NCBI GenBank assembly: GCA_028718985.1
Contig: JAQUKQ010000013.1
Span: 1 to 41,836, forward strand
Length of the DNA stretch: 41,836 bases
From: Desulfobulbaceae bacterium
Lineage (GTDB): Bacteria; Desulfobacterota; Desulfobulbia; Desulfobulbales; VMSU01
Direction: 5' to 3'
The notes under the pieces: generated by a model
The model's input: only the letters and a program-made list of their open reading frames with translations
Told to the model about the DNA's origin: nothing
Database searches by the model: none
Translations under genes and position numbers: made by a program
In this document: positions 10,971-32,446 of the stretch, in pieces
Position numbering within the stretch: the first letter of the stretch is position 1
How the letters are laid out: each line of letters opens with the position of its first letter

Positions 10971-11152
10971 GGTGTCCTTTGCGAATGAGAGATGATTGCG
11001 TGTTGAGCGGCAGTTGGAAGAGTGTTTTGCCAAATAAATATCTGAAGGTGGGTGACTGGGAAAACTTCCACTCAGAGGATCTTATTCTACCATGACTGCA
11101 CCAGGTCGACAATAGTGGCACAGACGAAACAAACATCTCCTGGCCTTCATGC

Positions 11153-12433
11153 TTATTGCTCGTTGGCGGCCTGTGTCTTAGTGGACTCCATTTGTTTGGA
11201 GTCCAGCCAGAGGAGTGGATCCACTGGGGTAGAACCATGGCGGATTTCGACGTGAAGACCTGGATTCACAAGGCCTGTTGGTTCTCCAAAGATACCGATG
11301 ATGTCCCCGGTGTTGACTTCGTCGTCCTTCTTGATGTCAAGTGAAGCAAGGCCAGAGACCAGGCTGTAGTACTGCTCGCCGTGGTCAATGATCACAAGTT
11401 TACCGTAGCCCGGCATCTCATCGGCATAAATGATGCGTCCCGCGTGCATGGCCACGACATCAGTTTGTGCCGGCAGAGCTAAATCGATACCATCCGCATG
11501 TAGTTCGTTGCCGAATTGGTCTTTGTAGAGGCCAAATACCCTGATGATCTGGCCCGGTGCAGGAGGCAGGATCTTGCCGCGGTGGGCGGAAAATTTTGTG
11601 GTCAGACTGCTGCTAGTTATTATTTTAGACTGAAAAGCCGTCTTTTTTTGCTTGCTATTCTTTATCTCAAGGGCACGTGCATTGTTAATGGTTTTGACAA
11701 GTTTTCCCGCCGCACTCTCAAGTTCTTTTAAGGCCTGACGATAGAGCTCTTGCTCGGCACGGGCCTGAGCGAGGAGGGCGTCTCGTTCACTGCGACTTTT
11801 GATGAGAGCCGCTTCCCCTGCCTGCATTTGCCCAATCAGGCCTTGCAGTTCTTCTTTAGCGCCGGTTAAATCCCCCTTTGCTTTGTCCAGCATGCGGATT
11901 TGTTCTCGGTACCCTTGCAAGACTTTCTGGTCATAACGAAAGAGTGCTTGGACATACTCTTGCAGATTCAGTAACTCACCGAGATTACTTGCCGAAAAAA
12001 GAGCGTTAATGATGCCGACTTCACCGGTTTGGTAAAAGGCTGCTAATCGTTTTTTGACGTGGTCGGCAATGCTCTCTTTTTGCCTTTGAATTTTCGTTGT
12101 CTCGGCTTCTTTTGTCTCAATGACGCCTTCCAGTCGGTGCAAATTGACATTCAAATCGCGCAGTGTCTCCTGCCCTTTTTCTATCTCGCTGGCAATTCGG
12201 TTTAATTCTTGTTCGAGGTTAAGCGCTTTAATTTTTGATTCTTCGATCATTTCCCTGTGTGATTCAATCTGCTTTTGCACCAGATTGAGTTGGCTGCTGC
12301 TTGACGATAAGGGCGTCTGTTGTGCCATAACCAGCATCGGACAGGCAAAGGACAAGGCCAAGGTGACGATGCCGCTCGTCTTGTTAACAAAGCCAAAAGG
12401 GGAAAAGCGAAGAGAAGAGGAGCAAAATGCCAT
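11153..12433 (-). CDS. envC: EnvC-like murein hydrolase activator with degenerate LytM domain
   Basis: 426-residue secreted protein. Residues 17-37 form a signal peptide ending ...PMLVMA before QQ. A long coiled coil fills about residues 45-260, and a LytM/M23 fold fills about 300-405. In the LytM fold HADGIDLA keeps an H-D pair, but the second metal motif, normally HxH, reads GLHVEIRH with glycine at the first position. The peptidase is therefore probably inactive, as in E. coli EnvC, which instead activates amidases when FtsEX pulls on its coiled coil. The adjacent ftsX, five bases upstream, supports this. No clear ribosome binding site precedes the ATG, so coupling to ftsX translation is likely. 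A 182-base gap separates it from ctpA. Confidence 0.88.
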   Translation of the reverse strand: MAFCSSSLRFSPFGFVNKTSGIVTLALSFACPMLVMAQQTPLSSSSSQLNLVQKQIESHREMIEESKIKALNLEQELNRIASEIEKGQETLRDLNVNLHRLEGVIETKEAETTKIQRQKESIADHVKKRLAAFYQTGEVGIINALFSASNLGELLNLQEYVQALFRYDQKVLQGYREQIRMLDKAKGDLTGAKEELQGLIGQMQAGEAALIKSRSERDALLAQARAEQELYRQALKELESAAGKLVKTINNARALEIKNSKQKKTAFQSKIITSSSLTTKFSAHRGKILPPAPGQIIRVFGLYKDQFGNELHADGIDLALPAQTDVVAMHAGRIIYADEMPGYGKLVIIDHGEQYYSLVSGLASLDIKKDDEVNTGDIIGIFGEPTGLVNPGLHVEIRHGSTPVDPLLWLDSKQMESTKTQAANEQ

Positions 12434-12438
12434 GCTGG

Positions 12439-13326
12439 TCAGACGCGGAGAAATTTGCGGATAGAGATTAAGCTGCCCACGGTACAGAGGAGGATACTGG
12501 CCGCAAAAATCATGACAACCATACTGGTTGGCAAAAAACTGAAGGCGACAATATCCAGCAGGCTTTGGCCGTTAAAGCGTCGTTGTACCCAGGAATAAAT
12601 AACGTGCAGGCAAAAGAGCCCGAGACCTGACCCAAGAATGCCTTGCATCAGGCCCTCCAGGAAAAGTGGAGCTTTGATGTAGAGCGACTCGGCACCAAGG
12701 AGCCGGAGGATTTCCAACTCTGTCTGTCGGGTAACCACCGTCAGTCGGATAGTGCTGGAAACCATAAATGTCGAGGTTAAAATCAGCAACCCGCCGCTCA
12801 AGTAGACAATCAGCCGAACCAGTTGGGTGAACCCTGCCAAACGTTCGATCCACTCCCTGCCATATTGCACCTTTTGGGCCCCGGGAAGGGTAGCCAGGAA
12901 GTCGGAGAACTGCTTGATGTTTCCTAAGGCGCTTAGATTTCTGGCCGGATAGACCTCAAGGGAGGGGGGGAGAAAGTCCGGCTTGAGATCGGTCAACAGG
13001 TCGCTGTCCGGGCCAAGTTGACTGCGTAGCTGTTGAAAGGCATCCTGCTGGGATTTAAAGACAACCTTTTCAACTGGAGCAAAGCTTTTTATCTGTTTTT
13101 CAAGGAGTGGCTTTTCGGTTGCGGAGGGTTCCTTGTCGAGGTAGACGATCAACTTAATATACTCGCCAAGTTGAACTCCTGAGCGCTGCAAGTTGAGAAA
13201 AACCAGGAAGAAGAAGGAGAAGATCAACACCGAGAGACTGACCGTAGTCAAAGTCATAACCTGGGAGCCGATAGTTTGGCTGAGGTTACGGACTGTTTGA
13301 GTAATGATAGCCATTGCTTTCATCAT
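12439..13326 (-). CDS. ftsX: Cell division protein FtsX
   Basis: 295-residue inner-membrane partner of FtsE. The first membrane span (VMTLTTVSLSVLIFSFFFLVFL, about 18-39) is followed by a periplasmic region of about 130 residues (LIVYLDKEPSATEKPLLE onward), which binds the coiled coil of EnvC. Three C-terminal spans follow, including LIVYLSGGLLILTSTFMVSS with the FtsX/MacB-type 'TIRLTVVTRQTELEILRLLGA' loop. The ATG overlaps the ftsE stop by four bases, with GGAGAA five bases upstream. The protein has no ATPase activity itself and transmits the FtsE nucleotide state to the periplasm. Confidence 0.94.
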   Translation of the reverse strand: MMKAMAIITQTVRNLSQTIGSQVMTLTTVSLSVLIFSFFFLVFLNLQRSGVQLGEYIKLIVYLDKEPSATEKPLLEKQIKSFAPVEKVVFKSQQDAFQQLRSQLGPDSDLLTDLKPDFLPPSLEVYPARNLSALGNIKQFSDFLATLPGAQKVQYGREWIERLAGFTQLVRLIVYLSGGLLILTSTFMVSSTIRLTVVTRQTELEILRLLGAESLYIKAPLFLEGLMQGILGSGLGLFCLHVIYSWVQRRFNGQSLLDIVAFSFLPTSMVVMIFAASILLCTVGSLISIRKFLRV

Positions 13327-14192
13327 GCTTCTCCTGACGTACTCTCGGCGGATAAGGGATCAGGCGAAACCCCATCTGCTTTTCCAGTGGACTTCTCACG
13401 AATAGGGGCATAGTTCGCAGGTCGCCTTCGTGCATCTGGCGCGCTCTGCAATCGCACCCTTTGACCGTCTGGCTTGTGATCAGAAACCTTGCTGAAAGTA
13501 TTTGCTGGGTGATGAGACTTGATTTTCCCTTGGGAGAGCTCAAGGACTTGGTGGGGTGAGTCTTGGTACAGCGAGAGGTCGTGGGTGGCGATGATTAGAG
13601 TCGTGCCAGCCCGTCGTAGTTGTTCAAACAGATCGACCACCAATTTGGTAGTGGTCGGATCGAGGTTACCGGTGGGCTCGTCGAGCAAAATGAGCGGCGG
13701 GTAATTGGCGGCGGCGCGGGCAATGGCGACTCGTTGCTGCTCGCCCCTGGAAAGTTTATCCACCCGAACGTCCTTCTTGGGCGTCAGGTTCAAGGAGTCA
13801 AGCAGGTAACTTATCCGATCGCGGATAGTCTTTGGCGGGGTGTAGGTCACCTCCATGGGCATGGCGATATTGTGGGCAACAGAGTGCCTGGGAAGAAGCT
13901 TGAAATCCTGATAGGCAACCCCCATCTGCTGGCGGATCGACTGGAGCTGGGTGGTAGAAGCACGGCTCAAGTCGTGCCCCGCAACCTCGACAATACCCTT
14001 GCTTGGGTGTTCAATGGCACAAATCAGTTTCAGGATGCTGCTCTTGCCGGCACCACTCATCCCGGTGAGGAAAAGGGTGTCGCCGGGCATGACAGAGAAA
14101 GAGAGATCGCGCAGGGCAATAACATCCGGCGGATAGATTTTACTGACTTTAGAAAAGTCGACAATGGGTGCTTTTGCGAGGATTCGTTCCAT
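13323..14192 (-). CDS. ftsE: Cell division ATP-binding protein FtsE with C-terminal extension
   Basis: ABC ATPase of the FtsEX complex. Walker A GMSGAGKSS, Q-loop region VAYQDFKLLPRHSV, signature LSRGEQQRVAIARA, Walker B LILLDEPTGNLD and switch IIATHD are intact. The conserved core ends near residue 227 (LELSQGKIKSHHP). About 60 further residues follow, rich in Pro, Arg, Lys and Ser with no predicted fold; standard FtsE is about 220-230 residues. The tail is in frame and leads directly into the overlapping ftsX start. Its role is unknown. The gene heads the operon; a possible promoter lies at 14272-14300. Confidence 0.93.
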   Translation of the reverse strand: MERILAKAPIVDFSKVSKIYPPDVIALRDLSFSVMPGDTLFLTGMSGAGKSSILKLICAIEHPSKGIVEVAGHDLSRASTTQLQSIRQQMGVAYQDFKLLPRHSVAHNIAMPMEVTYTPPKTIRDRISYLLDSLNLTPKKDVRVDKLSRGEQQRVAIARAAANYPPLILLDEPTGNLDPTTTKLVVDLFEQLRRAGTTLIIATHDLSLYQDSPHQVLELSQGKIKSHHPANTFSKVSDHKPDGQRVRLQSAPDARRRPANYAPIREKSTGKADGVSPDPLSAESTSGEA

Positions 14193-14642: not shown

Positions 14643-15644
14643 ATGACCGTAATGACCCCAAACAGCTATGCCGGAATTATTGGCAGTTGTGACATCATGC
14701 AGCGACTGTTCTCTCTAATCGCCAAGGTGACCGATACAGATACAACTATCCTGGTCCATGGTGAATCAGGGACCGGTAAGGAATTGATCGCTCGGGCCAT
14801 CCATTCGCAAGGTGCGCGGCGCAATAACCCCTTTGTGCCGATCAATTGTGGAGCAATCCCGGCTGAGCTTCTGGAAAGCGAGTTGTTCGGGCATGAGAAA
14901 GGTGCCTTTACCCATGCCATCCGTACGCGGCAGGGGCGTTTCGAATTGGCTGACAGCGGTACGGTGTTTCTGGATGAGATATCGGAGATGAGCCCCATGC
15001 TCCAGGTTAAGCTTCTCAGGGTACTGCAAGAGCGCCAATTTGAAAGGGTTGGCGGCACTCAGACCATCATCTCCGATTTTCGGGTTATCGCCGCTACCAA
15101 TCGTAATCTCGAGGAAGAGGTCAAGATCGGCAGGTTTAGGGAAGATTTGTATTATCGATTGAATGTCATTCCGATACAAGCACCGCCATTGCGGGATCGT
15201 TCGTCCGATATTGTGCCTCTGGTCGAGCATTTCATCCACTCGTTCAACGAGTCCAAAAATCGGCGGATTACCGGGATCTCACAGGACGCACTTGGCTCCC
15301 TACTGCGGTATTCATGGCCTGGCAATGTTAGAGAATTAGAGAACATTATCGAGAGGATGGTTATTCTGGCAGCGGGTAATGAAATCACATCGGCGGATTT
15401 GCCAGAAAAAATACTTCAAGCTAAGGGGGTTTGCCGGCAAGACGTGCTTGAAATTCCAGAGATGGGCTTTTTCCTGACTCAAGCGGTGGCGGATTATGAA
15501 AAAAAATTGATTGTGCAGGCCCTCAATCAGACCGATTGGGTAAAGAACCAGGCGGCCCAACTCATGAATGTCAATCGCACCACTTTAATTGAGAAAATGA
15601 AACGCTATGACCTGGTTAAGCCCCTGGTTACCATGACAGAATAA
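14643..15644 (+). CDS. Sigma-54-dependent activator without receiver domain
   Basis: 333-residue bacterial enhancer-binding protein with only the AAA+ and DNA-binding parts. Walker A is GESGTGKE (about residues 40-47), the sigma-54 contact loop reads GAFTHA where the classical form is GAFTGA, Walker B is GTVFLDEI, and [12 protein letters not shown] is the arginine-rich sensor region. The last 45 residues form a Fis-type helix-turn-helix (NQAAQLMNVNRTTLIEKMKRY). Without an N-terminal sensory or receiver domain it would be constitutively competent or controlled by a partner, like FlrA/FleQ-type flagellar master regulators that lack phosphorylation. It lies upstream of a TPR protein gene and an NtrC-type regulator and then the flagellar genes, so a flagellar role is a reasonable inference. 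Confidence 0.85.
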   Translation: MTVMTPNSYAGIIGSCDIMQRLFSLIAKVTDTDTTILVHGESGTGKELIARAIHSQGARRNNPFVPINCGAIPAELLESELFGHEKGAFTHAIRTRQGRFELADSGTVFLDEISEMSPMLQVKLLRVLQERQFERVGGTQTIISDFRVIAATNRNLEEEVKIGRFREDLYYRLNVIPIQAPPLRDRSSDIVPLVEHFIHSFNESKNRRITGISQDALGSLLRYSWPGNVRELENIIERMVILAAGNEITSADLPEKILQAKGVCRQDVLEIPEMGFFLTQAVADYEKKLIVQALNQTDWVKNQAAQLMNVNRTTLIEKMKRYDLVKPLVTMTE

Positions 15645-15691: not shown

Positions 15692-17779
15692 ATGCGAACT
15701 TCGCGTAATTTCTTCAAGGCTTTTTTTGCTTGCCTGCTGTTGCTTGTGCCACTATTGACGATGCCAAGCCACCTGCAGGCGCAGGAAGGCAAGAAAGAAG
15801 ATAAGAAGGAGGGGCCTCCGCCTATCTCCGTCAAGCGACCATCCTTGGATATGATATGGTCGCATGCGCAAGAGATGCTGCAGCTTGGTGACAATCAGGA
15901 GGCAGCTCGTCTTTTGTATTTAGTGCAATACTATTATCCGGATAACAGCAAGGGGGAGTCTGCTCTATGGCAGGCAGCAAATCTGCAGAAAGAACTGGCC
16001 TTGACTGCAAAAAGTGCTGACTGGGATAAGGTGCTGGAACTGTTTCGACGCTACAAGAATTTTTATCCAAAGTCTCCCAGAGCAGCAGAGGCCTATTTCG
16101 AAATAGCCAAGACCTACCAGGCCATGCACTATTATCGTGAGGCTCAGTCTTACTTTAAACTCTTCATGAAGCGCTACCCAGATTCTCCTTTGGTGCTTCA
16201 GGCGATGCGCTGGTATCGGAATTCCTTGCTCAGGGCCGGTCATGGCGATGATGCAGAGGAAGTCTTTGCTTCATGGAGAGAGTCAACGGATGCCACTGTG
16301 CGGAGGATGGGAGAGGCTGGAACCGGTAATTTGAAATCAATCGCAGGGGATTATCAGGGGGCGTTGGCCATTTACCAGAAAATCCTGAGCGAGGCTCCAG
16401 ATTTCCAGATGGCCGATCCAGAGATCCTGCGCTATGCCGGAACCGCCAATATGCGTTTGGGCAAGAGTGAGGCCGGAAGGGAGCAGCTCTACCATTATTT
16501 GACTTTGGCAGGGATGGTTGGCGACCGAAGCGATGTCTTGCTTGAACTGGCAGAGAGCTATTTCGTCGTCGGCGATTACCAATCCGCTCATAAATTATAT
16601 CGACAGCTTATTGCTGAGGGCGGGGGAGATGATCGAGCTGTGATGCTGAGCAACATGCGCATTAGTCAGTATCTCGACGATCCGGAAATCACTGTGGCCA
16701 AATGGCAGCGCCATAACGATCTTAAAGACCGCGAAGGAGATCGGCCCTATCTGGCAGTTCTTGAAAAGCTATACCGCGATCCTATTGCTCAGGATGCTCG
16801 GTTTGGTATTTTCAGACGTTATCAAGCAAGGGGTGAACTCGATAAGGCCTATGAAGTGGGAAGAAATTTCTTGCGCAGTGCGGAGCCCGCTGTGACCGGC
16901 ACCGAACCGAGCAAGGAGGTGAGTCAAATTCTTCTCTATCTGGTAGAGTCCTTACTGAAAGAGAAAAAATATCAGCAGATTTATGACCTTTATGCAGGAG
17001 AATATAGACATATTAAGGGCCTGCCAAGCGCCAAGTTTCACGCAATGATGGGACAAGCGCTCGAAACCTTGAATCTCTATGAACCAGCAGCGGCTTTTTA
17101 CTACTTGGCTTTGAAGTGGCCCATGACCGATCAGGAGAAGACGGATCTCTATTTCCGTCGGGCTAAGGTGTACTTGTTGGCCAAGAATTATGAGGCATTA
17201 GATAGGCTTTTGACCCATTTGAGCACTGTTTATCAAGGGAAACCTGAGGCCGGAGAGGTGGCGAATTTCAGTGCCAAGCTAAGCGAGGCTCGGGGGCAAG
17301 TCGATAAGACTCAAGCCTTTTATGCTGAAACCTTGAAGCAACCTGCTCCCCCTGAAAAGCGCCTGGAATCTTCTGTTGCAGCTTTGGGGCTCATGGTGCG
17401 CGAGGGAAAGCTTGATGGTGCAGAAACTATTTTGGCAACTGGAATCGAGGGCGGTTGGCTTAACCCAGAGGCGCAACAGCGATGGTGGCTTCGCATTGCC
17501 GATGGCTGGCGTTTGAAAGAGGACTTTGCTAAAGCAGAAAGCGCCTACTCAAAGGGACTCTCAAAAGGGTTGCCGGAAAAAGGTGAGGTCGCTCAACAAA
17601 TCCATCTTTATTTGGGGGACGTACTATTTTCCTTGGGCAATCAGAAACGGGGGCTTACTCATTATCAAGCCGCTGCTCAGGGGGAGAATTCCCTGTGGAA
17701 GAAGATGGCGAACGAACGAATTACCCAGTACCAACTAGACACAGAGATGGCCGCTATGCGAAAGGGAGCGGCAGAATAA
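15692..17779 (+). CDS. Secreted tetratricopeptide-repeat protein
   Basis: 695 residues. A signal peptide (FFKAFFACLLLLVPLLTM, cleavage near HLQAQ at about residue 30) and a Lys/Glu linker precede TPR-like helical repeats over most of the remaining length. Examples are QLGDNQEAARLLYLVQYYYP, KVLELFRRYKNFYPKSPRAA, REAQSYFKLFMKRYPDSP and GDYQSAHKLYRQLIAEGG. The early repeats have the tyrosine-proline ends typical of BamD/YbgF-like periplasmic scaffolds. No enzyme motif is seen. It starts 47 bases after the receiver-less activator and ends one base before the NtrC-type regulator, so the three are probably one operon. Function unknown; a periplasmic scaffold or checkpoint for flagellar assembly is a guess from position. 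Confidence 0.75.
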   Translation: MRTSRNFFKAFFACLLLLVPLLTMPSHLQAQEGKKEDKKEGPPPISVKRPSLDMIWSHAQEMLQLGDNQEAARLLYLVQYYYPDNSKGESALWQAANLQKELALTAKSADWDKVLELFRRYKNFYPKSPRAAEAYFEIAKTYQAMHYYREAQSYFKLFMKRYPDSPLVLQAMRWYRNSLLRAGHGDDAEEVFASWRESTDATVRRMGEAGTGNLKSIAGDYQGALAIYQKILSEAPDFQMADPEILRYAGTANMRLGKSEAGREQLYHYLTLAGMVGDRSDVLLELAESYFVVGDYQSAHKLYRQLIAEGGGDDRAVMLSNMRISQYLDDPEITVAKWQRHNDLKDREGDRPYLAVLEKLYRDPIAQDARFGIFRRYQARGELDKAYEVGRNFLRSAEPAVTGTEPSKEVSQILLYLVESLLKEKKYQQIYDLYAGEYRHIKGLPSAKFHAMMGQALETLNLYEPAAAFYYLALKWPMTDQEKTDLYFRRAKVYLLAKNYEALDRLLTHLSTVYQGKPEAGEVANFSAKLSEARGQVDKTQAFYAETLKQPAPPEKRLESSVAALGLMVREGKLDGAETILATGIEGGWLNPEAQQRWWLRIADGWRLKEDFAKAESAYSKGLSKGLPEKGEVAQQIHLYLGDVLFSLGNQKRGLTHYQAAAQGENSLWKKMANERITQYQLDTEMAAMRKGAAE

Positions 17780-17780
17780 G

Positions 17781-19259
17781 ATGAATTCACATTCTTCACC
17801 CACAGACTTGAACCATTCCGGCAAGAAAATCTTGGTGGTCGATGATGAACAAGGGATCAGGGTCGATCTCTTTCAGGCCCTGACGAAGGTCGATTTAACG
17901 GCAAGCGTAGCCGAAAATGGACGGATGGCTTTGGATATCCTTAATCGACAAACAGTCGATCTGATTATCTCTGATATCAAGATGCCTGAAATGGACGGAC
18001 TTGAGCTGTTAAAGCAGGCTAAAATCCTTTGTCCGCTAGTGCCGGTGATTATCATGACTGGTTTTGCGACGGTGGATTCTGCTATCCATGCCATGCGCTT
18101 GGGCGCTTTTGATTATATCCTTAAGCCCTTCCCTATGGAGGTCATGCTGGAAACCGTGTCACGAGCTTTGGCATCTGGGCAGTTGTTGCACGGTGCCAGT
18201 GATGGTGCATTGCTGCTATCGAGCACGCTGACTCGACAGGTCAAGGAACAACGGGTCATTATCGGGCGAGACCCTGCTTGGCTTAAGGTGGTGGATAGGG
18301 CGAAGGCGGTTGCCTCGAGTACTGCCACGGTCCTGATTCTAGGTGAGTCTGGTACTGGCAAGGAGGTGTTGGCCCGCCTGCTGCACGAGGAGAGTGAACG
18401 TTGCAATGGCCCTTTTGTCGCTTTGAATTGCGCAGCCTTGCCGGATGGACTTCTGGAGAGCGAATTGTTCGGTCATGAGAAGGGCGCCTTTACTGGTGCG
18501 ATCAGTACTAAGAAAGGCAAGTTTGAATTGGCTGACGGTGGCACCTTGCTCCTTGATGAGATCGGTGAGGTACCTATTCATCTGCAGGCCAAGTTGCTGC
18601 GTGTTCTCCAGGAAGGAGAGGTGGATCGTTTGGGCGGTAAGGCCCCAGTGAAGTTCGATGCCCATGTTCTGGCGGCGACCAACTGTAATTTGAGTGAGGC
18701 TGTCGAGCAAGGGACCTTCCGCCAAGATCTGTTCTATCGCTTGAATGTTATCCCTTTACGCTTACCTGCGCTAAAAGAACGTCAAGAGGACATCTTGTTG
18801 CTGGCCGATTATTTTATCGGGCGCTATGCAAATCAGTACAAAAAACTGGCAAAATCACTCTCGTGTCGCTCCCGGCAGCGACTGCTTGATTATTCCTGGC
18901 CAGGAAATGTCCGTGAAATGGAAAATATGATAGAGCGTGCCGTCCTCTTGAGTCGAGGTTCCTCCATCGAGCCTTGGGACCTTTGGGATGAAGAGGAAGA
19001 GCCTGCGGACGTCGCAACTTTACCTTGCGATATCGAGGATGGACAGCCTGGGATTGTAAGCGCAGCGTCAGACAGGGCCATTTTTGCCGATGACAATGGC
19101 CGGATGGTGCCACTGAAAGAGGTAGAGCGTCAAATGATTCGTCAGGCCTTGCAACAAACCGACAATAATCGGACCCATGCCGCCAAGATATTAGGTATTA
19201 GCGTCCGGACATTACGCAATAAATTGAACGAATACCGTAGTCAAGGGATGGTGTTGTAG
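17781..19259 (+). CDS. NtrC-family response regulator (FlrC/FleR-like)
   Basis: 492 residues. The receiver domain has [12 protein letters not shown] and the phospho-accepting Asp in [13 protein letters not shown] (about D60), IIMTGFAT and FDYILKPF. The AAA+ domain has Walker A GESGTGKE, an intact GAFTGA loop, [10 protein letters not shown] and [12 protein letters not shown]. The C-terminal Fis-type helix-turn-helix reads [22 protein letters not shown]. It lies directly upstream of flgB, which has a sigma-54 promoter, so it probably switches on basal-body genes when phosphorylated, as FlrC, FleR and FlgR do. No cognate kinase is adjacent; the soluble kinase at 2976 is the only candidate here. 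Start ATG lies one base after the TPR gene stop. Confidence 0.9.
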
Positions 19260-19606
19260 CCCGCGGCCATCGTTTTTCGTGCCGTTTGCGGTGTGATTGC
19301 CCGTGCTTGTTTTATCGAAAGGCGCAATATCGCAAATAGCGTGTAAGCATCTCCGATAACCCCTTTAATCCCTCTCGTTCACAGGTGCAGACCCTCTGCA
19401 GCGTGGATTTTTCAGCGGGAGAATACGGCTGCACGGCACGCTGCTGCACATCTTTCATCCTCATTGCCAGTGCTCGCCATCTCTTCCTCCCCCCTGCCTG
19501 ACCTCTTCTTCTTTTTTTATTGTCTTTGATCTCACATGAAAAACGGCATCAATTTTGCAGTTTGTCATGACAGGTTGCAGAGTGATACCATTTCAGGAGG
19601 ATTCGT
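19260..19606. other. Regulatory region upstream of flgB
   Basis: 347 bases without a gene. It contains the sigma-54 promoter at 19544-19559, a pyrimidine-rich stretch around 19478-19525 and, further upstream (19434-19448), a second CGGCACG-like element whose spacing to GC is one base short. Binding sites for the upstream activators would be expected here; the short palindrome TGCAGACCCTCTGCA near 19386 is one candidate. Confidence 0.5.
19544..19559 (+). promoter_or_regulatory. Sigma-54 (-24/-12) promoter of flgB operon
   Basis: CGGCATCAATTTTGCA places GG at 19545-19546 and GC at 19557-19558, exactly the required 12-base offset, and TTTGCA matches the -12 box. Transcription would begin near 19570, about 37 bases before the flgB ATG, leaving room for its AGGAGG ribosome site. 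Two sigma-54 activators are encoded immediately upstream. Confidence 0.75.
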
Positions 19607-19996
19607 ATGCCATTTACCAATAAACTTTTCGGTGGGGTTGTGCAAAGCAGCCGTCTGGCCTTAGACGCTAGGATGGAGCGTCAGGGGCTTATCCAATCGA
19701 ATGTCGCCAATATAGAAACCCCCGGCTACAACGTGCAGGACTTTTCCTTTGCCGCGGTCATGAAAAATGCCATGTTGCAACGTGGCAAACTTGCTCAGAC
19801 CAATGAACGCCATCTTGGTCTTGACCCGGTAGCACTGAGCGAGAGCTTGGAGTTCAGCAACGAGAAGCGACCGGTTGATCTCGATGAAGAGATGCAGAAA
19901 CTAGCGGAAAATCAATTGATGTTTCAGGTCACCACCAAAATTTTAGGAAGTAAATTTGAGTCATTGAAACTTGCAATCGATGAGGGAGGGAAATAA
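19607..19996 (+). CDS. flgB: Flagellar basal-body rod protein FlgB
   Basis: 129-residue proximal rod subunit exported by the flagellar type III system. The N-terminus shows the rod signature ALDARMERQGLIQSNVANIETPGYN, and the C-terminal helix ends NQLMFQVTTKILGSKFESLKLAI. A strong AGGAGG lies seven bases before the ATG. It is the first gene behind the sigma-54 promoter and sits three bases before flgC. Confidence 0.95.
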   Translation: MPFTNKLFGGVVQSSRLALDARMERQGLIQSNVANIETPGYNVQDFSFAAVMKNAMLQRGKLAQTNERHLGLDPVALSESLEFSNEKRPVDLDEEMQKLAENQLMFQVTTKILGSKFESLKLAIDEGGK

Positions 19997-19999
19997 TCC

Positions 20000-20437
20000 A
20001 TGGACTTTTTAACCGCCATGAAGATCAGCGGTTCGGCTTTAAAGGCTGAGCGGACCAGAATCAATGTTGCCTCTATGAATTTAGCAAATGCGAATACCAC
20101 CCGTACTATCGAAGGTGGCCCGTATCGTGCAAAATCTGTCATCTTTGGCGCTAAGCCAGTGCAGGGCAATACCTTTCAACAGACCTATGATTCGGTAGAC
20201 AGTAAGCTGCGCAAGGTTGAGGTTGTTGAAGTGGTCGAAGACAAGGTGCCGTTTAAGGAGGTCTACGACCCTGCACATCCAGATGCCGATGCTAATGGTA
20301 TCGTCAAGATGCCAAATGTCAACACTGCTGAGCAGATGGTTGACCTGATGAGCGCGCGCCGAGATTTTGACGCCAATGTGACGGCCATGGATTCCATTAA
20401 GGCAATAGCATTACGCTCGCTTGAGATTAGTCGTTAA
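20000..20437 (+). CDS. flgC: Flagellar basal-body rod protein FlgC
   Basis: 145-residue proximal rod subunit. The N-terminal helix SGSALKAERTRINVASMNLANANT matches the rod/hook family, as does the C-terminal VDLMSARRDFDANVTAMDSIK. The middle section (PVQGNTFQQTYD, KVPFKEVYDPAHPDAD) is normal for FlgC. GGGAGGG upstream overlaps the flgB stop region. Confidence 0.95.
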   Translation: MDFLTAMKISGSALKAERTRINVASMNLANANTTRTIEGGPYRAKSVIFGAKPVQGNTFQQTYDSVDSKLRKVEVVEVVEDKVPFKEVYDPAHPDADANGIVKMPNVNTAEQMVDLMSARRDFDANVTAMDSIKAIALRSLEISR

Positions 20438-20518
20438 GGGAATTTTTAGGCAAAAACAGATCCGTTTAAAATAACCGGATCGAATCGTTAACAGCGATAA
20501 TCGACGAGAGGGGTGATC

Positions 20519-20809
20519 ATGAAGGCAATAGGGCTCAATCCAATCCAGCTTAGCAGTAGTCCAGCATTCAAGGCGAAAGAGGCACAGGGCACGGGTTTCG
20601 GTGATATCCTGCAAGAGTCTATTGCTGCGGTCAATCAAAAGGCACAGGAGTCAGCTACGCTCAGTGAAGGGTTGGTCAGCGGCCAACACTCCAATATCCA
20701 TGAGACGATGATTGCTATGGAGGAGAGTAGTATATCCTTTCGGATGCTGGCTAAAGTTCAGAATAAGGTGATCAACGCCTATAATGAGATCATGCGCCTT
20801 CAATTGTAA
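20519..20809 (+). CDS. fliE: Flagellar hook-basal body protein FliE
   Basis: 96-residue protein that joins the MS ring to the rod and is needed to open export of rod proteins. The C-terminal pattern SNIHETMIAMEESSISFRML then AKVQNKVINAYNEIMRLQL is characteristic. I chose ATG 20519 since AGAGGGG ends five bases upstream; a GTG two codons earlier overlaps that ribosome site. A weak hairpin (GATCCGTTT with AACCGGATC, one mismatch, no T-run) lies in the 81-base gap after flgC and is more likely an mRNA stability element than a terminator. Confidence 0.93.
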   Translation: MKAIGLNPIQLSSSPAFKAKEAQGTGFGDILQESIAAVNQKAQESATLSEGLVSGQHSNIHETMIAMEESSISFRMLAKVQNKVINAYNEIMRLQL

Positions 20810-20896
20810 GATATATGTTTTTATCGGTAGGCTGCTTTCTTTGTAACAGCCTGTCCCCTGTCTCCCTTATCTTGTTTCCTTATAAAGAGGCATTTC

Positions 20897-22510
20897 ATGG
20901 CAAGCCCTAAAGAGATGTTGCAACAGATGTTGTCGGTTACCAAGGACTTTACTGCCCTCCAAAAAATTATGGCGGTTGTTGTTGTGGTCGGTGTTATGGG
21001 CGGCATGTTGATGTTGACTGCAGGTGGTAAGGCCACGAGTTATCAGGTGTTATTTTCATCTCTCAATCAAGAAGATGCTGCGGAAGTTACCGCTAAACTG
21101 AAAGAACTGCTCATCCCTTATGAGTTGGATATGAACGGCACGGTAGTCAAGGTGCCGGCAGATAAGGTTCTCGACACCAGGTTGAGTTTGGCGGGCGAAG
21201 GTTTACCAAGAGGTGGCGGCATTGGCTTTGAGATTTTTGATAAAACCAGTTTTGGCACCACCGATTTTGTTCAAAAAATGAACTACCAGCGTGCCTTACA
21301 GGGGGAGCTAGCTAGGACGATTCGACAGTTTCAACAGGTTGCTGAGGCAAGGGTGCATATCGCCGCCCCTGCGGAGTCGGTATTTATTGAAGACCAAAAA
21401 CCACCCTCTGCTTCTGTCAGTGTTAAGTTGCGCGGCAACAACCAGCTTGAACAAAAACAGATTCAGGCTATCGTCAATTTAGTGGCAAGTGCGGTACAGG
21501 GTTTGACTGCAGAAAATATCACCGTGGTCGACACGGCTGGTCGACTTCTCTTCCGGAAACACGGAGGGGCAATTGGCCAGATGTCTGATAGTCAGCTTGA
21601 ATTTCAACAGAATACCGAAAAGTCCTTGCGCGACAAATTGGAAACCATGTTCGAACAGGTGGTTGGGGTAGGCAAGGCTATAGCACGGGTCTCAGTTGAA
21701 CTTGATTTTAACCAGACAGAAACAACGGAAGAGACCTTTGATCCTGAGGGGCAGGTTGTACGCAGTGAGCAATTACTTAACGAGGGAAACGCTCAGGCGG
21801 GTTCATCTCCTGAGGGCATCCCTGGGGTGAAAGGTAATCTCGCCACTTTTAATGAGGCTGGAGGAGGGGGCGCGAGTGGTGGTGGAAGTGGTTCGCGCAA
21901 TAATGTCACCCGAAACTATGAAGTCAGCAAGGTCGTCAAAAAAACAACCGGTGCCTCTGGCAAGATCAAGAGGCTGTCGGTTGCTGTGATGGTTGATGGC
22001 ACTTACGAGAAGAGTGTTGACAAGGACGGGGTGACAAACCTAAAATATGTACAGAGAAGCCCTGAAGACTTGAAGTGGTACGAGAAAATGGCAAAAAATG
22101 CTGTAGGTTTTGATGCCGATCGAGGCGATCAACTTGAAGTGGTCGGTACCAGTTTTGCGGTTTCGACGGAGCCTGAAATGAAGACAAACCCGATGGAGCG
22201 ATGGCAGCAGATTCTCGATCGCTTGGGTCAACCGATGATCTATCTGGTCATGGCGCTTTGTTTTGTGCTTTTTGTGGTACGACCATTTTTCCGGTTGCTT
22301 GCCAATAAACAATTGGAAGACCAACGTCAGTCGCTGCTTGCCAGTAAGCCTGGTGGGGGGCAAAAGCTGTCGGATGAGGGATTTCCTGAGGAGGATCTGT
22401 CTTTGAAGCCCATGGGCATGACAGACAGGGAGAAGATTTATAAACTTGCGCAGACAGACCCTGACCGGGCGGCAGACCTCGTTCGCCGCTGGTTAAGGCA
22501 AGAGGCATAA
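20897..22510 (+). CDS. fliF: Flagellar MS-ring protein FliF
   Basis: 537-residue inner-membrane ring protein. An N-terminal span (IMAVVVVVGVMGGMLMLTAG, about 24-43) precedes the ring-building motif region (YQVLFSSLNQEDAAEVTAKL; VPADKVLDTRLSLAGEGLPRG; GFEIFDKTSFGTTDFVQ) and a glycine/serine-rich stretch (about 320-335). A second span (MIYLVMALCFVLFVVRPFF, about 437-455) precedes the cytoplasmic tail (ADLVRRWLRQEA) that binds FliG. AGAGG precedes the ATG. It lies three bases before fliG. Confidence 0.97.
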   Translation: MASPKEMLQQMLSVTKDFTALQKIMAVVVVVGVMGGMLMLTAGGKATSYQVLFSSLNQEDAAEVTAKLKELLIPYELDMNGTVVKVPADKVLDTRLSLAGEGLPRGGGIGFEIFDKTSFGTTDFVQKMNYQRALQGELARTIRQFQQVAEARVHIAAPAESVFIEDQKPPSASVSVKLRGNNQLEQKQIQAIVNLVASAVQGLTAENITVVDTAGRLLFRKHGGAIGQMSDSQLEFQQNTEKSLRDKLETMFEQVVGVGKAIARVSVELDFNQTETTEETFDPEGQVVRSEQLLNEGNAQAGSSPEGIPGVKGNLATFNEAGGGGASGGGSGSRNNVTRNYEVSKVVKKTTGASGKIKRLSVAVMVDGTYEKSVDKDGVTNLKYVQRSPEDLKWYEKMAKNAVGFDADRGDQLEVVGTSFAVSTEPEMKTNPMERWQQILDRLGQPMIYLVMALCFVLFVVRPFFRLLANKQLEDQRQSLLASKPGGGQKLSDEGFPEEDLSLKPMGMTDREKIYKLAQTDPDRAADLVRRWLRQEA

Positions 22511-22513
22511 TCG

Positions 22514-23536
22514 ATGGCAAAAAGAGATAAGAGTGGTGACGACCAGCTCTCTGGGCCAGAAAAAGCGGCAATATTCTTATTGACGCTTGGCGAGGATTTC
22601 ACCGCCAAGGTGTTCCAACGCTTGGAAGAGGACGAGATCCGCGTGGTCGGTAAACAGATGGCCAAAATTGATCATGTTGAAAAAGATGATATCGCCAATC
22701 TTTTGCGGGAGTTCCGCTCCGATGAGGGTGGCGAGGGCTTGTACCTCTCTGGTGATGATCTTTTGGAATCGGCGCTCAAAAAGGCCCTGCAATCGGATAA
22801 AGCCAATTCCATTCTCGACGATATCCGCTCTGATTGGCGCTTGACTCTGTTCCAGAAGGCGAGAAAGCTTGATCCTCGCATCTTGGTCAATTTTCTTCGA
22901 AACGAACACCCACAAACTATCGCGCTGGTCATGGCAGTTCTTGAACAATCCCAAGCGGCAGTCATCTTAGGAGAGTTGAAAGAAGATCAGCGCATTGAGG
23001 TAATTATCCGGATGAGTGAATTAGATAAGGTCAGTCCGGAGATATTGGTTGAAATCGATCGAGTTCTGCAGGAAGAGCTTCTTGCTGTAGAGGGTGTTGA
23101 AGGTCAACGCTTAGGCGGCGTCGAGGTGGTGGCAGAGATTCTGAATACTGCCGATCGAGCCCTGGAGGCATCGATTCTTGAGGGTGTTGAAGAGCAGCGA
23201 GAGGAGTTAGCTGATGAGATTCGGCGTTTGATGTTTGTCTTCGACGACTTGATTGGTGTTGACGACCGTGGGGTTATGGCAATTCTGAAAGAGGTAAGCA
23301 CTGACGACCTGAAGTTAGCTCTGAAGACGGCAGCGGCAGACTTGCAAGAGAAGATATTCAAGAATATGTCGCAACGTGCTGTCGAGATGTTGAAGGAAGA
23401 CATGGAGATTATGGGGCCGACTCGCTTGAAGGATGTCGAAACCGCCCAGCAAGCTATCCTGAAGATCGCTAAGCGTCTTGAGCAAGAAGGTAAGATTCAG
23501 CTGTCAGCTGGAGGCGGTGACGATGAATTCGTCTAG
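22514..23536 (+). CDS. fliG: Flagellar motor switch protein FliG
   Basis: 340-residue C-ring protein that contacts the stator and sets torque direction. The N-terminal domain (GPEKAAIFLLTLGEDFTAKV) binds FliF, the middle domain carries the EHPQTIALVMAVLEQSQAA motif, and the C-terminal torque helix (STDDLKLALKTAAADLQEKI, then FKNMSQRAVEMLKEDMEIMG) keeps the charged Asp, Lys, Arg and Glu residues. The 3' end overlaps fliH by 14 bases. Confidence 0.97.
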   Translation: MAKRDKSGDDQLSGPEKAAIFLLTLGEDFTAKVFQRLEEDEIRVVGKQMAKIDHVEKDDIANLLREFRSDEGGEGLYLSGDDLLESALKKALQSDKANSILDDIRSDWRLTLFQKARKLDPRILVNFLRNEHPQTIALVMAVLEQSQAAVILGELKEDQRIEVIIRMSELDKVSPEILVEIDRVLQEELLAVEGVEGQRLGGVEVVAEILNTADRALEASILEGVEEQREELADEIRRLMFVFDDLIGVDDRGVMAILKEVSTDDLKLALKTAAADLQEKIFKNMSQRAVEMLKEDMEIMGPTRLKDVETAQQAILKIAKRLEQEGKIQLSAGGGDDEFV

Positions 23537-24284
23537 GGTGATTAAGTCCTCGCTGGGAGGGAGTGGTAATGCAATTTTTATCACGCGGCCGGGAGGAGGG
23601 GAGTCCGGCGGGGGAGGATTTCACTCCTTAGCTTCGTTATGGCAATCGGACGATGCGGAGCTGGTCTCTGCCCTTAGCACATTGGAGGAAGAAAAAAAAC
23701 TTTTGCAGCAAGCAGTTGAGGCGACGAAGGCCGAAACTGAAGAAATGCTGGCAGCCGCTCAGGAGCGAGTTGCACAGATAGAAAAAGATGCCTTCGACAA
23801 GGGATTTGCGGCAGGAAAAGCAGAATGTCTCGCCCAAGAGCAGGCGAAATTTGCCCAGATTGACACCTTGCTTGCCGAGATTGAACAAGACAGAAAGAAA
23901 CTTTATGCGCAGTACGAAACAGACATCCTCTCCTTAGTCAAGGCTATGGTGGACAGGGTTCTTTTCCATGAGGTGACGATCAATCCCAAGGCGATTGAAG
24001 TCTGCCTGAAGACTGCACTGGCCTATGTGGTAGAGAATTCGAGTCTCGTTATTCGCCTGCATGCTCAAGACCTTGTGCGCTTGAAGCAGGTGGCCATGGA
24101 GCGACCAGAACTCTTAGCTGGCTACAAGAAGATCGAACTTGTCGAAGACCCGTCGATTGCTCTCGGCGGCTGTCATATTGATACCGGCTTTGGCGAAATT
24201 GATGCTAGTCTTGAGTCCCGTAAGGAAAAGGTGTTCTTGGCCATTGATGCTGTTTTGCATAAGGCTGTCAGCGCAGCAAAATAA
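23523..24284 (+). CDS. fliH: Flagellar assembly protein FliH
   Basis: 253-residue regulator of the FliI export ATPase. The N-terminal segment is glycine-rich and poorly conserved; a coiled-coil region rich in Glu, Gln and Ala (about residues 55-125) includes FDKGFAAGKAE, the usual FliH motif. The C-terminal domain (VKAMVDRVLFHEVTINPKAI; VEDPSIALGGCHIDTGFGEID) matches the FliH/HrpE domain. I chose ATG 23523, inside the end of fliG, because GGAGG sits nine bases upstream; a start at 23478 would overlap fliG by 59 bases without a ribosome site. Confidence 0.92.
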   Translation: MNSSRVIKSSLGGSGNAIFITRPGGGESGGGGFHSLASLWQSDDAELVSALSTLEEEKKLLQQAVEATKAETEEMLAAAQERVAQIEKDAFDKGFAAGKAECLAQEQAKFAQIDTLLAEIEQDRKKLYAQYETDILSLVKAMVDRVLFHEVTINPKAIEVCLKTALAYVVENSSLVIRLHAQDLVRLKQVAMERPELLAGYKKIELVEDPSIALGGCHIDTGFGEIDASLESRKEKVFLAIDAVLHKAVSAAK

Positions 24285-24287
24285 CCG

Positions 24288-25598
24288 ATGAATATCCAAC
24301 ATTGCTTAAGCGCGGTCGAAGCGACTGACATGATATCTGTTCGTGGCAGGGTCAGCCAGGTCATTGGCATGGTGGTCGAAAGCCATGGCCCCGGCATCCC
24401 GGTGGGCAGTATCTGCGAGATAAGCACCTTTCGTGGTCAGAACAAGATTCCTGCCGAGGTCGTAGGCTTTCGGGAAGGACGGGTATTGCTGATGCCGCTT
24501 GGCGAGATGCGCGGAGTAGAGCCAGGCAGTGTCATTCAGCAAGTTGGCGGCCAAGCCTCTGTCCCAGTATCTCAGGCCATGCTCGGCCGCATCATCGACG
24601 GCTTAGGCAATCCGGTAGATGGCAAGGGTCCACTCCTCGCTGATTCGAGCTACCCCCTGTATGCTGAGCCGTTAAATCCGATGGAGCGCCAACGGATCAC
24701 TGAACCTGTCGATGTTGGGGTGCGCGCCATCAATGGCCTCTTAACCCTGGGCCGAGGGCAACGCATCGCAATCATGGCAGGTTCCGGGGTCGGAAAGAGT
24801 ACCTTGCTTGGTATGATTGCCAAGCACACGGCTGCCGACATCAGCGTAATCGCCCTAATCGGTGAGCGTGGCAGGGAGCTGAAGGATTTCATCGAACGGG
24901 ATCTGGGTCCAGAGGGCTTGGCCCGTTCTGTAGTGATTGTCGCCACATCTGATCAGCCTCCATTGGTGCGCATGAGGGGGGCATATCTCGCAACGGCTAT
25001 CGCCGAGTATTTTCGTGATTTGGGTCGTGACGTCATCATGATGATGGATTCGGTGACGCGGTTCGCCATGTCGAGTCGTGAGGTCGGCTTGGCTATCGGC
25101 GAGCCGCCAACCTCGAGGGGGTATACACCTTCGGTATTTTCTCAACTGCCAAAACTTCTCGAACGGGCTGGAACCTGTAAAGGGCAGGGGAGCATTACCG
25201 GAATTTATACTGTGTTAGTTGAAGGCGATGACATGAATGAACCTATTGCCGATGCAGTGCGTTCTATTGTTGACGGCCATATCGTCTTGTCACGCGATTT
25301 GGCGAGTCGCGGTCATTACCCGGCGATCGAAATCCTTGGCAGTATTAGCCGCTGCATGAGTGATGTCATGCCGAGGGATCACATGAATCGAGCACATCGT
25401 TTCCTGGAGACACTGGCGGTTTATCGGAAATCAGAGGATTTGATCAATATCGGCGCCTACGCTAAGGGCAGTAATCCGAAGATCGATAAATCCATCAGTA
25501 TGATTGACGGGCTAAATGCCTTCCTGAAACAACAGGTGGATGAAAAATTGTCTCTTGCTGAGAGCGGCAACGCCTTAAGCGCCTTGATGGGTGCCTAA
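24288..25598 (+). CDS. fliI: Flagellum-specific export ATPase FliI
   Basis: 436-residue F1-beta-like ATPase that energises flagellar protein export. Walker A is AGSGVGKSTLLG (about residues 164-175), followed by LIGERGRELKDF, Walker B VIMMMDSVTRFAMSSRE and PPTSRGYTPSVFSQLPKLLERAG. The C-terminal NPKIDKSISMIDGLNAFLKQ block is typical. The start lies three bases after the fliH stop. Confidence 0.97.
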   Translation: MNIQHCLSAVEATDMISVRGRVSQVIGMVVESHGPGIPVGSICEISTFRGQNKIPAEVVGFREGRVLLMPLGEMRGVEPGSVIQQVGGQASVPVSQAMLGRIIDGLGNPVDGKGPLLADSSYPLYAEPLNPMERQRITEPVDVGVRAINGLLTLGRGQRIAIMAGSGVGKSTLLGMIAKHTAADISVIALIGERGRELKDFIERDLGPEGLARSVVIVATSDQPPLVRMRGAYLATAIAEYFRDLGRDVIMMMDSVTRFAMSSREVGLAIGEPPTSRGYTPSVFSQLPKLLERAGTCKGQGSITGIYTVLVEGDDMNEPIADAVRSIVDGHIVLSRDLASRGHYPAIEILGSISRCMSDVMPRDHMNRAHRFLETLAVYRKSEDLINIGAYAKGSNPKIDKSISMIDGLNAFLKQQVDEKLSLAESGNALSALMGA

Positions 25599-25699
25599 AA
25601 CTGTTTGTCGTTTTGAGGGAGTGCTTCACGCTGGGTGTCTGCCCTCGGGATCATCGGCTGCACAACCACTCTTTATCGTTATCAAATTGAGCCTTCGAC

Positions 25700-26146
25700 A
25701 TGGCCTATCACTACAAACTGGAAACCCTGCTTTCGGTGCGCCGAAATTTTGAGGATCAGGCTCAACAGAAGTTGGCTCACGAGCTTTTTGTGCTGGCGAA
25801 CCATAAAAAATATCTTGCTGACTTGGAAGAACAGCGTTTAGCCTTGTTTGCGACGTTGGAAGTGAAAAAGCAACAAACCATGAGTGCTGCCATGTTCAGC
25901 TTCTATACCGAGGCGATTCATTTGAAGAATCGCCAGATTGCCTTTCAGCACAACGCAATTTTAGCCCAACAGGAGATGATTGAGACTGTGCGTGCCGATT
26001 TGATAGTGAAGGTCAAGGCCCGCAAAGTTGTTGAGCGGTTGAAAGAGAAAGATTTTGTTGTCTGGCGGCAGGAAGTGCTTCGCAAGGAGCAGATCGAGAG
26101 TGATGAACAAGCGGTGATGCGCTTTGGCAAGGAGGCAATACAATGA
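25700..26146 (+). CDS. fliJ: Flagellar export chaperone FliJ
   Basis: 148-residue, almost wholly coiled-coil protein. YHYKLETLLSVRRNFEDQAQ at the N-terminus is the FliJ signature, and the rest is Glu/Gln/Lys-rich helix. FliJ binds FliI and FlhA and couples export to the proton motive force. A 101-base gap separates it from fliI with no promoter I can recognise. Its stop overlaps the motE start by four bases (ATGA). Confidence 0.88.
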   Translation: MAYHYKLETLLSVRRNFEDQAQQKLAHELFVLANHKKYLADLEEQRLALFATLEVKKQQTMSAAMFSFYTEAIHLKNRQIAFQHNAILAQQEMIETVRADLIVKVKARKVVERLKEKDFVVWRQEVLRKEQIESDEQAVMRFGKEAIQ

Positions 26147-26646
26147 AGATAAAGATATTTTTTCTGATATTGGCAGCACTTGGGCTTTTAGCCAGCGGTG
26201 GTGCGGTGCTGCATGCCTTGGATAAACAACCTGTCAAGGCGATAACTCCTGAAGACGTTGCGAATGCCTTTAATATAAAAGAGAGAGAGGCAGCCGTCGT
26301 TGCCAAAGAAACAGAGATCAGCAAACGAGAACAGATGCAGGAACAGGTCAAAAAGGAGCTCGATGAAAAATTGGCCAAGTTGACCAGTTTGCAACAGGAG
26401 TTAAAAGACCAGTTGGCAGCCATTAAGGGAGCCCAAAGTCAGGAGTTTACGAACTTGGTAAAAATTTACAGTACTATGAGCGCCTCGAAGGTGGCACCTC
26501 TCTTAGACTCGATGGACGATCCGGCAGTTGTCAAAATCTTTCGGGCCATGAAGACCGATCAGGTCGCTAAAATCATACCAAAACTAAAACAGGAGAAGGC
26601 AGTTGCCGTCAGTCAGAGTCTTGGCATGATCGATACACAACTATAG
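26143..26646 (+). CDS. motE: MotE-like flagellar motility protein
   Basis: 167-residue protein with an N-terminal hydrophobic segment (IFFLILAALGLLASGGAVLHAL, about 5-26), a coiled coil (KETEISKREQMQEQVKKELD onward, about 55-95), and a C-terminal MgtE-N-like helical domain (VKIYSTMSASKVAPLLDSMD; AVVKIFRAMKTDQVAKIIPKL). This architecture and the position after fliJ match MotE, a periplasmic partner of the stator-stabilising protein MotC. Its C-terminal codon and stop (CTATAG) are shared with the convergent fabD gene. Confidence 0.75.
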   Translation: MKIKIFFLILAALGLLASGGAVLHALDKQPVKAITPEDVANAFNIKEREAAVVAKETEISKREQMQEQVKKELDEKLAKLTSLQQELKDQLAAIKGAQSQEFTNLVKIYSTMSASKVAPLLDSMDDPAVVKIFRAMKTDQVAKIIPKLKQEKAVAVSQSLGMIDTQL

Positions 26647-32354: not shown

Positions 32355-32369
32355 TGGCACATGTGTTGC
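32355..32369 (+). promoter_or_regulatory. Sigma-54 (-24/-12) promoter of fliK-flgD-flgE
   Basis: TGGCACATGTGTTGC matches the consensus TGGCAC-N5-TTGC at every fixed position with exact spacing. Transcription would begin near 32381, about 65 bases before the fliK start. Confidence 0.85.
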
Positions 32370-32446
32370 TCTAATGGAGGGGCAGATAGAACTGTGTGCT
32401 CGACGAGAAAGTTTGCAATCGAAAAACATACAAACGAGGATATCCC

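Follow-up and report, generated by a model that had tools for sequence, protein, structure and literature searches.

A secreted tetratricopeptide protein encoded beside flgB in Desulfobulbales, a probable E-ring-bound spoke of the flagellar motor

Between the genes for two sigma-54 regulators, and upstream of genes for the flagellar basal body, a 41,836-nucleotide stretch of Desulfobulbaceae DNA (hereafter 'the window') encodes a 695-residue protein with tetratricopeptide repeats (TPRs) that probably serves as a structural part of the flagellar motor. The reading that we favor, to which we assign a probability of about 0.7, is that this protein is a periplasmic TPR spoke bound to the E-ring and supporting the stators, a component of the PflA/MotC/MotK/FlcB kind that lacks the β-sandwich of PflA. 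It would bind FlgY in the E-ring, take up a position in the motor and, by analogy with these proteins, support the stators. An earlier note on the same DNA had proposed a periplasmic flagellar component, and this proposal is supported both by the flagella-bound distribution of the protein and by its conserved neighborhood. The window derives from an assembly of 3.35 Mb in 225 contigs that is 94% complete.

The gene for the proposed E-ring spoke or stator scaffold (15692..17779, + strand) is an open reading frame of 695 codons with an ATG start. It begins 47 bases after a gene for a 333-residue receiver-less sigma-54 activator (EBP; 14643..15644, +), in which Pfam recognizes the sigma-54 activation domain, the lid and a Fis-type helix-turn-helix (HTH) domain. 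It ends one base before a gene for an NtrC-type response regulator (17781..19259, +), which has receiver, AAA and HTH domains according to Pfam. The basal-body genes flgB, flgC, fliE, fliF, fliG, fliH, fliI and fliJ (19607..26146, +) were assigned from profiles and conserved order: fliG and fliJ are named by NCBIfam, fliE, fliF, fliH and fliI by Pfam, and flgB (which has no Pfam match) and flgC by sequence and gene order. A candidate gene for the E-ring protein FlgY/MotE is located at 26143..26646 (+). The earlier note had described the same arrangement, including both intergenic distances, the signal peptide, the TPRs and the placement upstream of basal-body genes, and all of these details were reproduced.

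A weak sigma-54-like −24/−12 site with two mismatches (GG-N10-GC; 19544..19559, +) is located 47 bases upstream of flgB. A scan of the window yielded 25 sigma-54-like matches versus 26.4 expected by chance, and therefore position alone favors this site. A perfect sigma-54 consensus (TGGCACN5TTGCT) is present at 32355-32370, 25 bases upstream of a fliK-like gene at 32396. Adjoining the flagellar regulators is a divergent block (9528-14192, −) that encodes FtsE, FtsX, an M23/EnvC-like protein and a C-terminal processing protease, and its FtsE is present in 28 of 37 loci of the order.

The TPRs are spread along the chain, as evident from Pfam (TPR_14, E 2e-13; TPR_19, E 8.6e-10) and NCBIfam matches, and those near the N-terminus resemble the repeats of YbgF and BamD. 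The earlier note had recognized this resemblance, and NCBIfam bears it out with a YbgF-like match at E 4.6e-13 and a BamD-like match at E 6.5e-08, both well below the curated cut-offs (49.8 bits versus 90.1, and 32.3 bits versus 81.4, respectively). The CpoB model yields 20.4 bits versus a curated cut-off of 383. Membership in the BamD or YbgF/CpoB families was rejected because every one of these curated NCBIfam cut-offs is missed, and none of the curated Pfam or NCBIfam families names the 695-residue protein.

The N-terminus is hydrophobic with an AxA-like end, and it reads as a cleavable signal peptide of about residues 1-30 (15692..15781, +), with predicted cleavage between the A of HLQA and the Q that follows. 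The homologues listed also have a hydrophobic N-terminus, a property that served as one criterion when their start codons were picked. The protein is thus predicted to be exported by Sec.

A model generated with AlphaFold2 from a 24-sequence alignment (mean pLDDT 90) has a signal helix at residues 5-22, disorder from 24 to 46, and nothing but helices from 52 to 694. This predicted solenoid comprises 34 helices, one of which has only four residues, and no strands. Conservation peaks at about residues 447-491. A Foldseek search of 350,542 PDB chains places chain K of entry 9hmf at rank 2 (E 6.3e-11). This entry is an alpha-carbon model of the periplasmic scaffold of the C. jejuni motor, and its chain K has 773 residues, which is the length given for mature C. 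jejuni PflA (residues 16-788) in PMC11392913. We therefore infer that chain K is PflA. The match has a TM score of 0.35 by query length and an rmsd of 19 Å, and its neighbors in the list are mostly eukaryotic TPR proteins with comparable E-values. A separate structural comparison (VIA) lists 50 matches that include OGT, BBSome, LGN, BamD and YbgF, and 9hmf is not among these, an absence that weighs neither way; residues 47-297 match BamD and YbgF, among others. Given the generic TPR proteins that surround 9hmf_K and the generic folds reported by VIA, the fold by itself is insufficient to fix the identity of the protein, as TPR solenoids resemble one another. When profiles were compared with the PDB, the motor scaffold was not among the 60 of 139 matches listed for the window's family (A1-type), and none of the 56 matches to a second, diverged family (A2-type, described below), all of which were checked, is named as a motor scaffold. 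TPR sequences diverge fast.

An initial contig scan with the window protein as a single query gave no match. Strong homologues were found in 38 of the 58 genomes of the order Desulfobulbales that were searched (counting the source genome), and a restriction of the protein to the window's genus was thus rejected. Wider regions were examined for 36 of the 37 other genomes, and one genome with a 3,972-base contig (G047, L013) was left out of the tabulation. Searches of these 36 genomes by tblastn with the window genes revealed the activator gene upstream in 36, the NtrC-type gene downstream in 35, and then flgB in 34. One flgB miss (G032) is a contig that stops before flgB. Another genome (G010) is a real exception, in which 3.3 kb past the TPR gene contain no NtrC-type gene and fliG is carried on another contig. 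In this genome (L066, 10488-13813), the NtrC-type gene is replaced by two signal-bearing open reading frames of 612 and 350 codons, the second of which reads as lipoprotein-like.

In 15 of the 37 loci of the order, the TPR gene and the NtrC-type gene are separated by a histidine kinase gene. A PAS-type kinase gene is found at this place in L041 (which is among the 15), L042, L043, L045, L058 and others, which represent other families of the order. The lineage of the window lacks it there, with none at 17779-17781, and the absence of this intervening gene results in the one-base gap. Outside the order, 20 regions chosen from the best matches in the phylum, a biased set, were examined, and in 17 of them an NtrC-type gene follows the TPR gene. 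The arrangement activator-TPR-NtrC-flgB, whose conservation the earlier note had proposed to look at, is found repeatedly in Desulfobulbales and elsewhere in the phylum, and chance therefore does not explain the position of the TPR gene next to the flagellar genes.

For a broader view of the phylum, we took about every third genome, in handle order, from the 137 that have FliG and lie outside the order, which gave a sample of 40. Loci were considered assessable if they included at least 4 kb upstream of flgB or if the TPR gene was visible, which left 33. Genomes G196, G218, G253, G328, G332, G344 and G360 were dropped because they had less than 4 kb upstream of flgB or because flgB was outside the stretch, and G377 was kept because its TPR gene was seen even though flgB was unrecognized. 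Both the TPR gene and FlgY are present in 24 of the 33 loci, FlgY without the TPR gene in four, neither in five, and the TPR gene without FlgY in none (Fisher p 5e-4, a value that ignores relatedness and is drawn from small numbers with related genomes included). FlgY matches in all 24 TPR loci have E-values of 1.6e-11 or better. Some TPR calls are weak, such as G221, with 21 bits, and G284, with an over-long reading frame of 2256 codons. Among the five genomes with neither, the only genome-wide FlgY match is one at 8.5e-4 (G202), and in all five the NtrC-type gene is found directly upstream of flgB. The presence of the TPR gene therefore tracks FlgY better than it tracks the regulators, as is expected of a spoke and not of a regulatory checkpoint.

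The four genomes with FlgY and no recognized TPR gene beside flgB are G238, G266, G301 and G355. At the place of the TPR gene, G238 carries an open reading frame of 434 codons with a signal-like start and a weak TPR signal. In G301 and G355, which belong to one family, flgB and the gene for a 434-residue FlgY-like protein (L194, 9108-10412; L195, 9937-11241) are on different contigs.

The five loci that lack both genes bear on an alternative in which the protein, instead of being a stator scaffold, would act as a platform or chaperone in the assembly of the rod or the P-ring or in the passage of the basal body through peptidoglycan. Such a function would be in keeping with the closeness of the gene to flgB and flgC, with the BamD/YbgF-like repeats at the N-terminus, and with the adjoining divergent genes for FtsEX, the M23 protein and the C-terminal protease. 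However, all five loci keep flgB, flgC, fliE, fliF and fliG, and so the rod can apparently be built without the TPR protein. The pattern of presence likewise follows the E-ring protein, and we consider a platform or chaperone function unlikely.

The A1-type is missing from nine genomes of the order that have FliG. In the eight of these whose region reaches flgB, a different TPR protein of approximately 800 residues with a signal-like start, the A2-type, is encoded directly before flgB. This second type occurs in three families of the order, where its gene directly precedes flgB and has no full-length NtrC-type gene as a neighbor. It carries an extra N-terminal region that is not identified by Pfam. 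The profiles of the two types can be aligned over 549 columns, as far as the C-terminus of each (probability 99.4, E 2.4e-21); this is no more than suggestive of a relationship, as TPR profiles align easily. In loci of the three families with the A2-type (L070-L078), FlgB is 28-34% identical to that of the window, versus 44-82% in A1-type loci of the order. The pairing of a diverged flagellar set with the A2-type looks as though the flagellar system had been swapped in its entirety.

Among 192 genomes of the class, 59 carry the A1-type with FliG, 81 carry the A2-type with FliG, three have FliG without a TPR type, 48 have none of these, and no genome has both types. The single A2-type genome without FliG (G144) is 84% complete. 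Calls of the A1-type are separated by a wide gap, with best matches per genome of at least 549 bits in those called and at most 48.6 bits in the rest. Exactly one TPR type is present in 140 of the 143 FliG-positive genomes, versus 1 of the 49 FliG-negative genomes, a group that includes incomplete MAGs. The occurrence of homologues in non-flagellated genomes or away from flagellar loci, which the earlier note had named as grounds for refutation, is not borne out, as all 59 A1-type genomes in the class have FliG and the gene neighborhood is conserved.

The exceptions among FliG-positive genomes are G164, in which a cut A2-type C-terminus is present at the start of a contig, and two genomes of one genus (G086 and G128) that have no FlhA match. 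Around fliG, G086 carries genes for the activator, fliF, fliG and fliM (L150, 9098-15623), and G128 carries the activator gene, a shortened fliG and fliM (L151, 7804-12043). The genes flgB, flgC, fliE, fliH and fliI were not found in these stretches, and the two loci look like a remnant of the switch and rotor ring without the rod or export gate.

The proposed partner of the spoke has a comparable distribution. As translated, the product of 26143-26646 contains a signal or transmembrane segment, a coiled coil and an MgtE_N-like domain. It scores 26.8 bits with the Pfam MgtE_N model (cut-off 25.9) and matches a model of the FlbB collar with an E-value of 6.4e-06, under the cut-off of that model. 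The same architecture is described for the FlgY/MotE/FlbB E-ring protein (PMC13023049; PMC11870540). Of the 140 class genomes that have FliG and a TPR type, 135 contain the family built on this product (A5), and in the five misses the contigs stop no later than the point where the gene would be expected. Four of the misses have FliG on the downstream side at no more than 2.3 kb from the contig start, and in the fifth (G106) the contig ends at 6,640, which is 2.9 kb past FliG. The A5 family is also present in G164 and G144, and it is absent from G086 and G128.

The earlier note had treated the pairing with two regulators as the key to function and had suggested a checkpoint, in which the periplasmic protein would sense the progress of the basal body and signal to the sigma-54 regulators, either directly or via a kinase, so that late flagellar genes are turned on. 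The order activator-TPR-[kinase]-NtrC-flgB is indeed persistent in Desulfobulbales and in many loci of the phylum, and the kinase gene that intervenes in 15 of 37 loci of the order would offer a route for such a signal. However, the six A2-type loci with long upstream sequence have the activator gene several kb away and no full-length NtrC-type neighbor, and the five phylum loci without the TPR gene and FlgY retain the NtrC-type gene. These two observations weigh against the pairing as the key feature and against the checkpoint as well. In addition, two genomes of genus g44 keep the activator gene without either TPR type or FlgY, and the kinases examined, as read from their sequences, begin with a PAS-like region and have no obvious periplasmic domain. 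We therefore regard a checkpoint function as improbable. That the protein is a general envelope TPR protein of the CpoB/YbgF/BamD type, located in a flagellar locus by accident, would accord with its sub-threshold YbgF and BamD matches and with the appearance of both among the structural matches of residues 47-297, but it is very improbable given the missed curated cut-offs and the presence of FliG in 140 of the 141 class genomes with either TPR type, versus 3 of the 51 without.

If the protein is an E-ring-bound spoke, as we favor, it would leave the cytoplasm via Sec by means of its putative signal peptide, and its mature chain is predicted to fold as a rod-like superhelix of approximately 16 to 17 helix pairs. 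The spoke would then bind the FlgY/MotE-type E-ring around the MS-ring, as suggested by the nearby partner gene and by the co-occurrence of the two, and its outer end may position or stabilize the MotAB stators in the manner of PflA, MotC, MotK and FlcB. The two adjoining sigma-54 regulators most likely merely share an operon with the spoke, as would befit early-class genes. Since the window protein has no β-sandwich, a rim of the PflB type is not expected, and the motor is predicted to have a plain E-ring and spoke with no PflB rim.

A more elaborate proposal joins these points, and we offer it tentatively, as it is rather doubtful in its entirety. Desulfobacterota motors may have a minimal two-part periplasmic scaffold, composed of an E-ring with one TPR spoke and lacking a PflB rim. 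The class would possess two deeply diverged and mutually exclusive forms of this spoke, with or without the extra N-terminal region, that have been swapped along with the entire set of flagellar genes. For the form in the window, placement of the gene within the sigma-54 control operon would couple production of the scaffold to that of the regulators, and assembly of the spoke might in turn feed back on transcription.

The analysis adds several points to what has been described. The TPR proteins can be aligned as a family whose gene position is largely constant within one phylum, and a single class has two mutually exclusive TPR types, with joint absence of the TPR gene and FlgY in several lineages. 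The pairing of E-ring and spoke thus becomes testable in culturable relatives, such as Desulfurivibrio, and the lineages without both the TPR gene and FlgY can serve as natural controls. A flagellar NtrC-type regulator of Desulfovibrio has been described, in passages that leave the TPR gene unmentioned (PMC3333781). In titles, abstract openings and passages of the open-access literature, we found no description of the activator-TPR-NtrC-flgB order or of this TPR gene, and our search of that literature returned no paper on a tetratricopeptide protein in the flagellar motor of Desulfobacterota.

Among known proteins, YbgF/CpoB and BamD share the type of TPR found in the N-terminal repeats of the window protein, which differs from them in being approximately 2.5 to 3 times the length of the CpoB and BamD models and in having a distribution linked to flagella. 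The Bdellovibrio protein WP_011165745.1, for which a small motor ring has been proposed (PMC5758724), is similar in that it has a signal sequence and a long TPR region and is encoded in a flagellar operon. As described there, it differs from the window protein in that its TPRs extend over approximately 1000 residues and that it has a transmembrane helix. MotC of Sinorhizobium meliloti and MotK of Cereibacter sphaeroides are likewise periplasmic TPR proteins that are paired with MotE/FlgY and tied to rotation (PMC13023049; PMC10954123). Rotation depends on MotK and MotE, which interact with MotB2 (PMC10954123), and a motor role is reported for PflA, MotK and MotE (PMC12222027; PMC10954123; PMC13023049). 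By their descriptions, neither MotC nor the window protein has an AMIN domain, whereas MotK has one. The gene contexts of MotC and MotK differ from that of the window gene, and the A2-type relatives of the window protein have the extra N-terminal region to which Pfam assigns no family. PflB has an antiparallel β pair in its TPR domain, which the strandless model of the window protein lacks, and it also has a transmembrane motif.

The closest comparison is with PflA of C. jejuni and H. pylori. PflA spokes contact the FlgY E-ring and hold PflB via an N-terminal β-sandwich (PMC12222027; PMC11870540), and this domain is missing from the AlphaFold2 model of the window protein. Sequence similarity to PflA was not detected among the PDB profile matches listed, and the window gene differs in its location between sigma-54 regulators beside flgB. 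The similarities are that both proteins appear to be exported by Sec, that a flexible linker is followed by a long TPR superhelix (residues 169-788 with 16 predicted TPRs in C. jejuni PflA, and 52-694 in the window protein), that FlgY is encoded in the same genome, and that both are tied to flagella; the chain at Foldseek rank 2 is also a scaffold chain of a length that fits PflA. A 2025 preprint (PMC11870540), presumably the study to which PMC13023049 refers as Feng et al. 2026, regards TPR proteins encoded close to flagellar genes as possible homologues of PflA in approximately 52% of flagellated species, reports FlgY in 66%, and proposes that E-ring and spokes are ancient motor parts. Because sequences drift fast, the TPR part was guessed there from nearness to flagellar genes. 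The statement in the earlier note that this is not a known flagellar protein thus holds with regard to curated families, none of which names it, but not with regard to its kind, which that preprint had already proposed. The window protein exemplifies that proposal.
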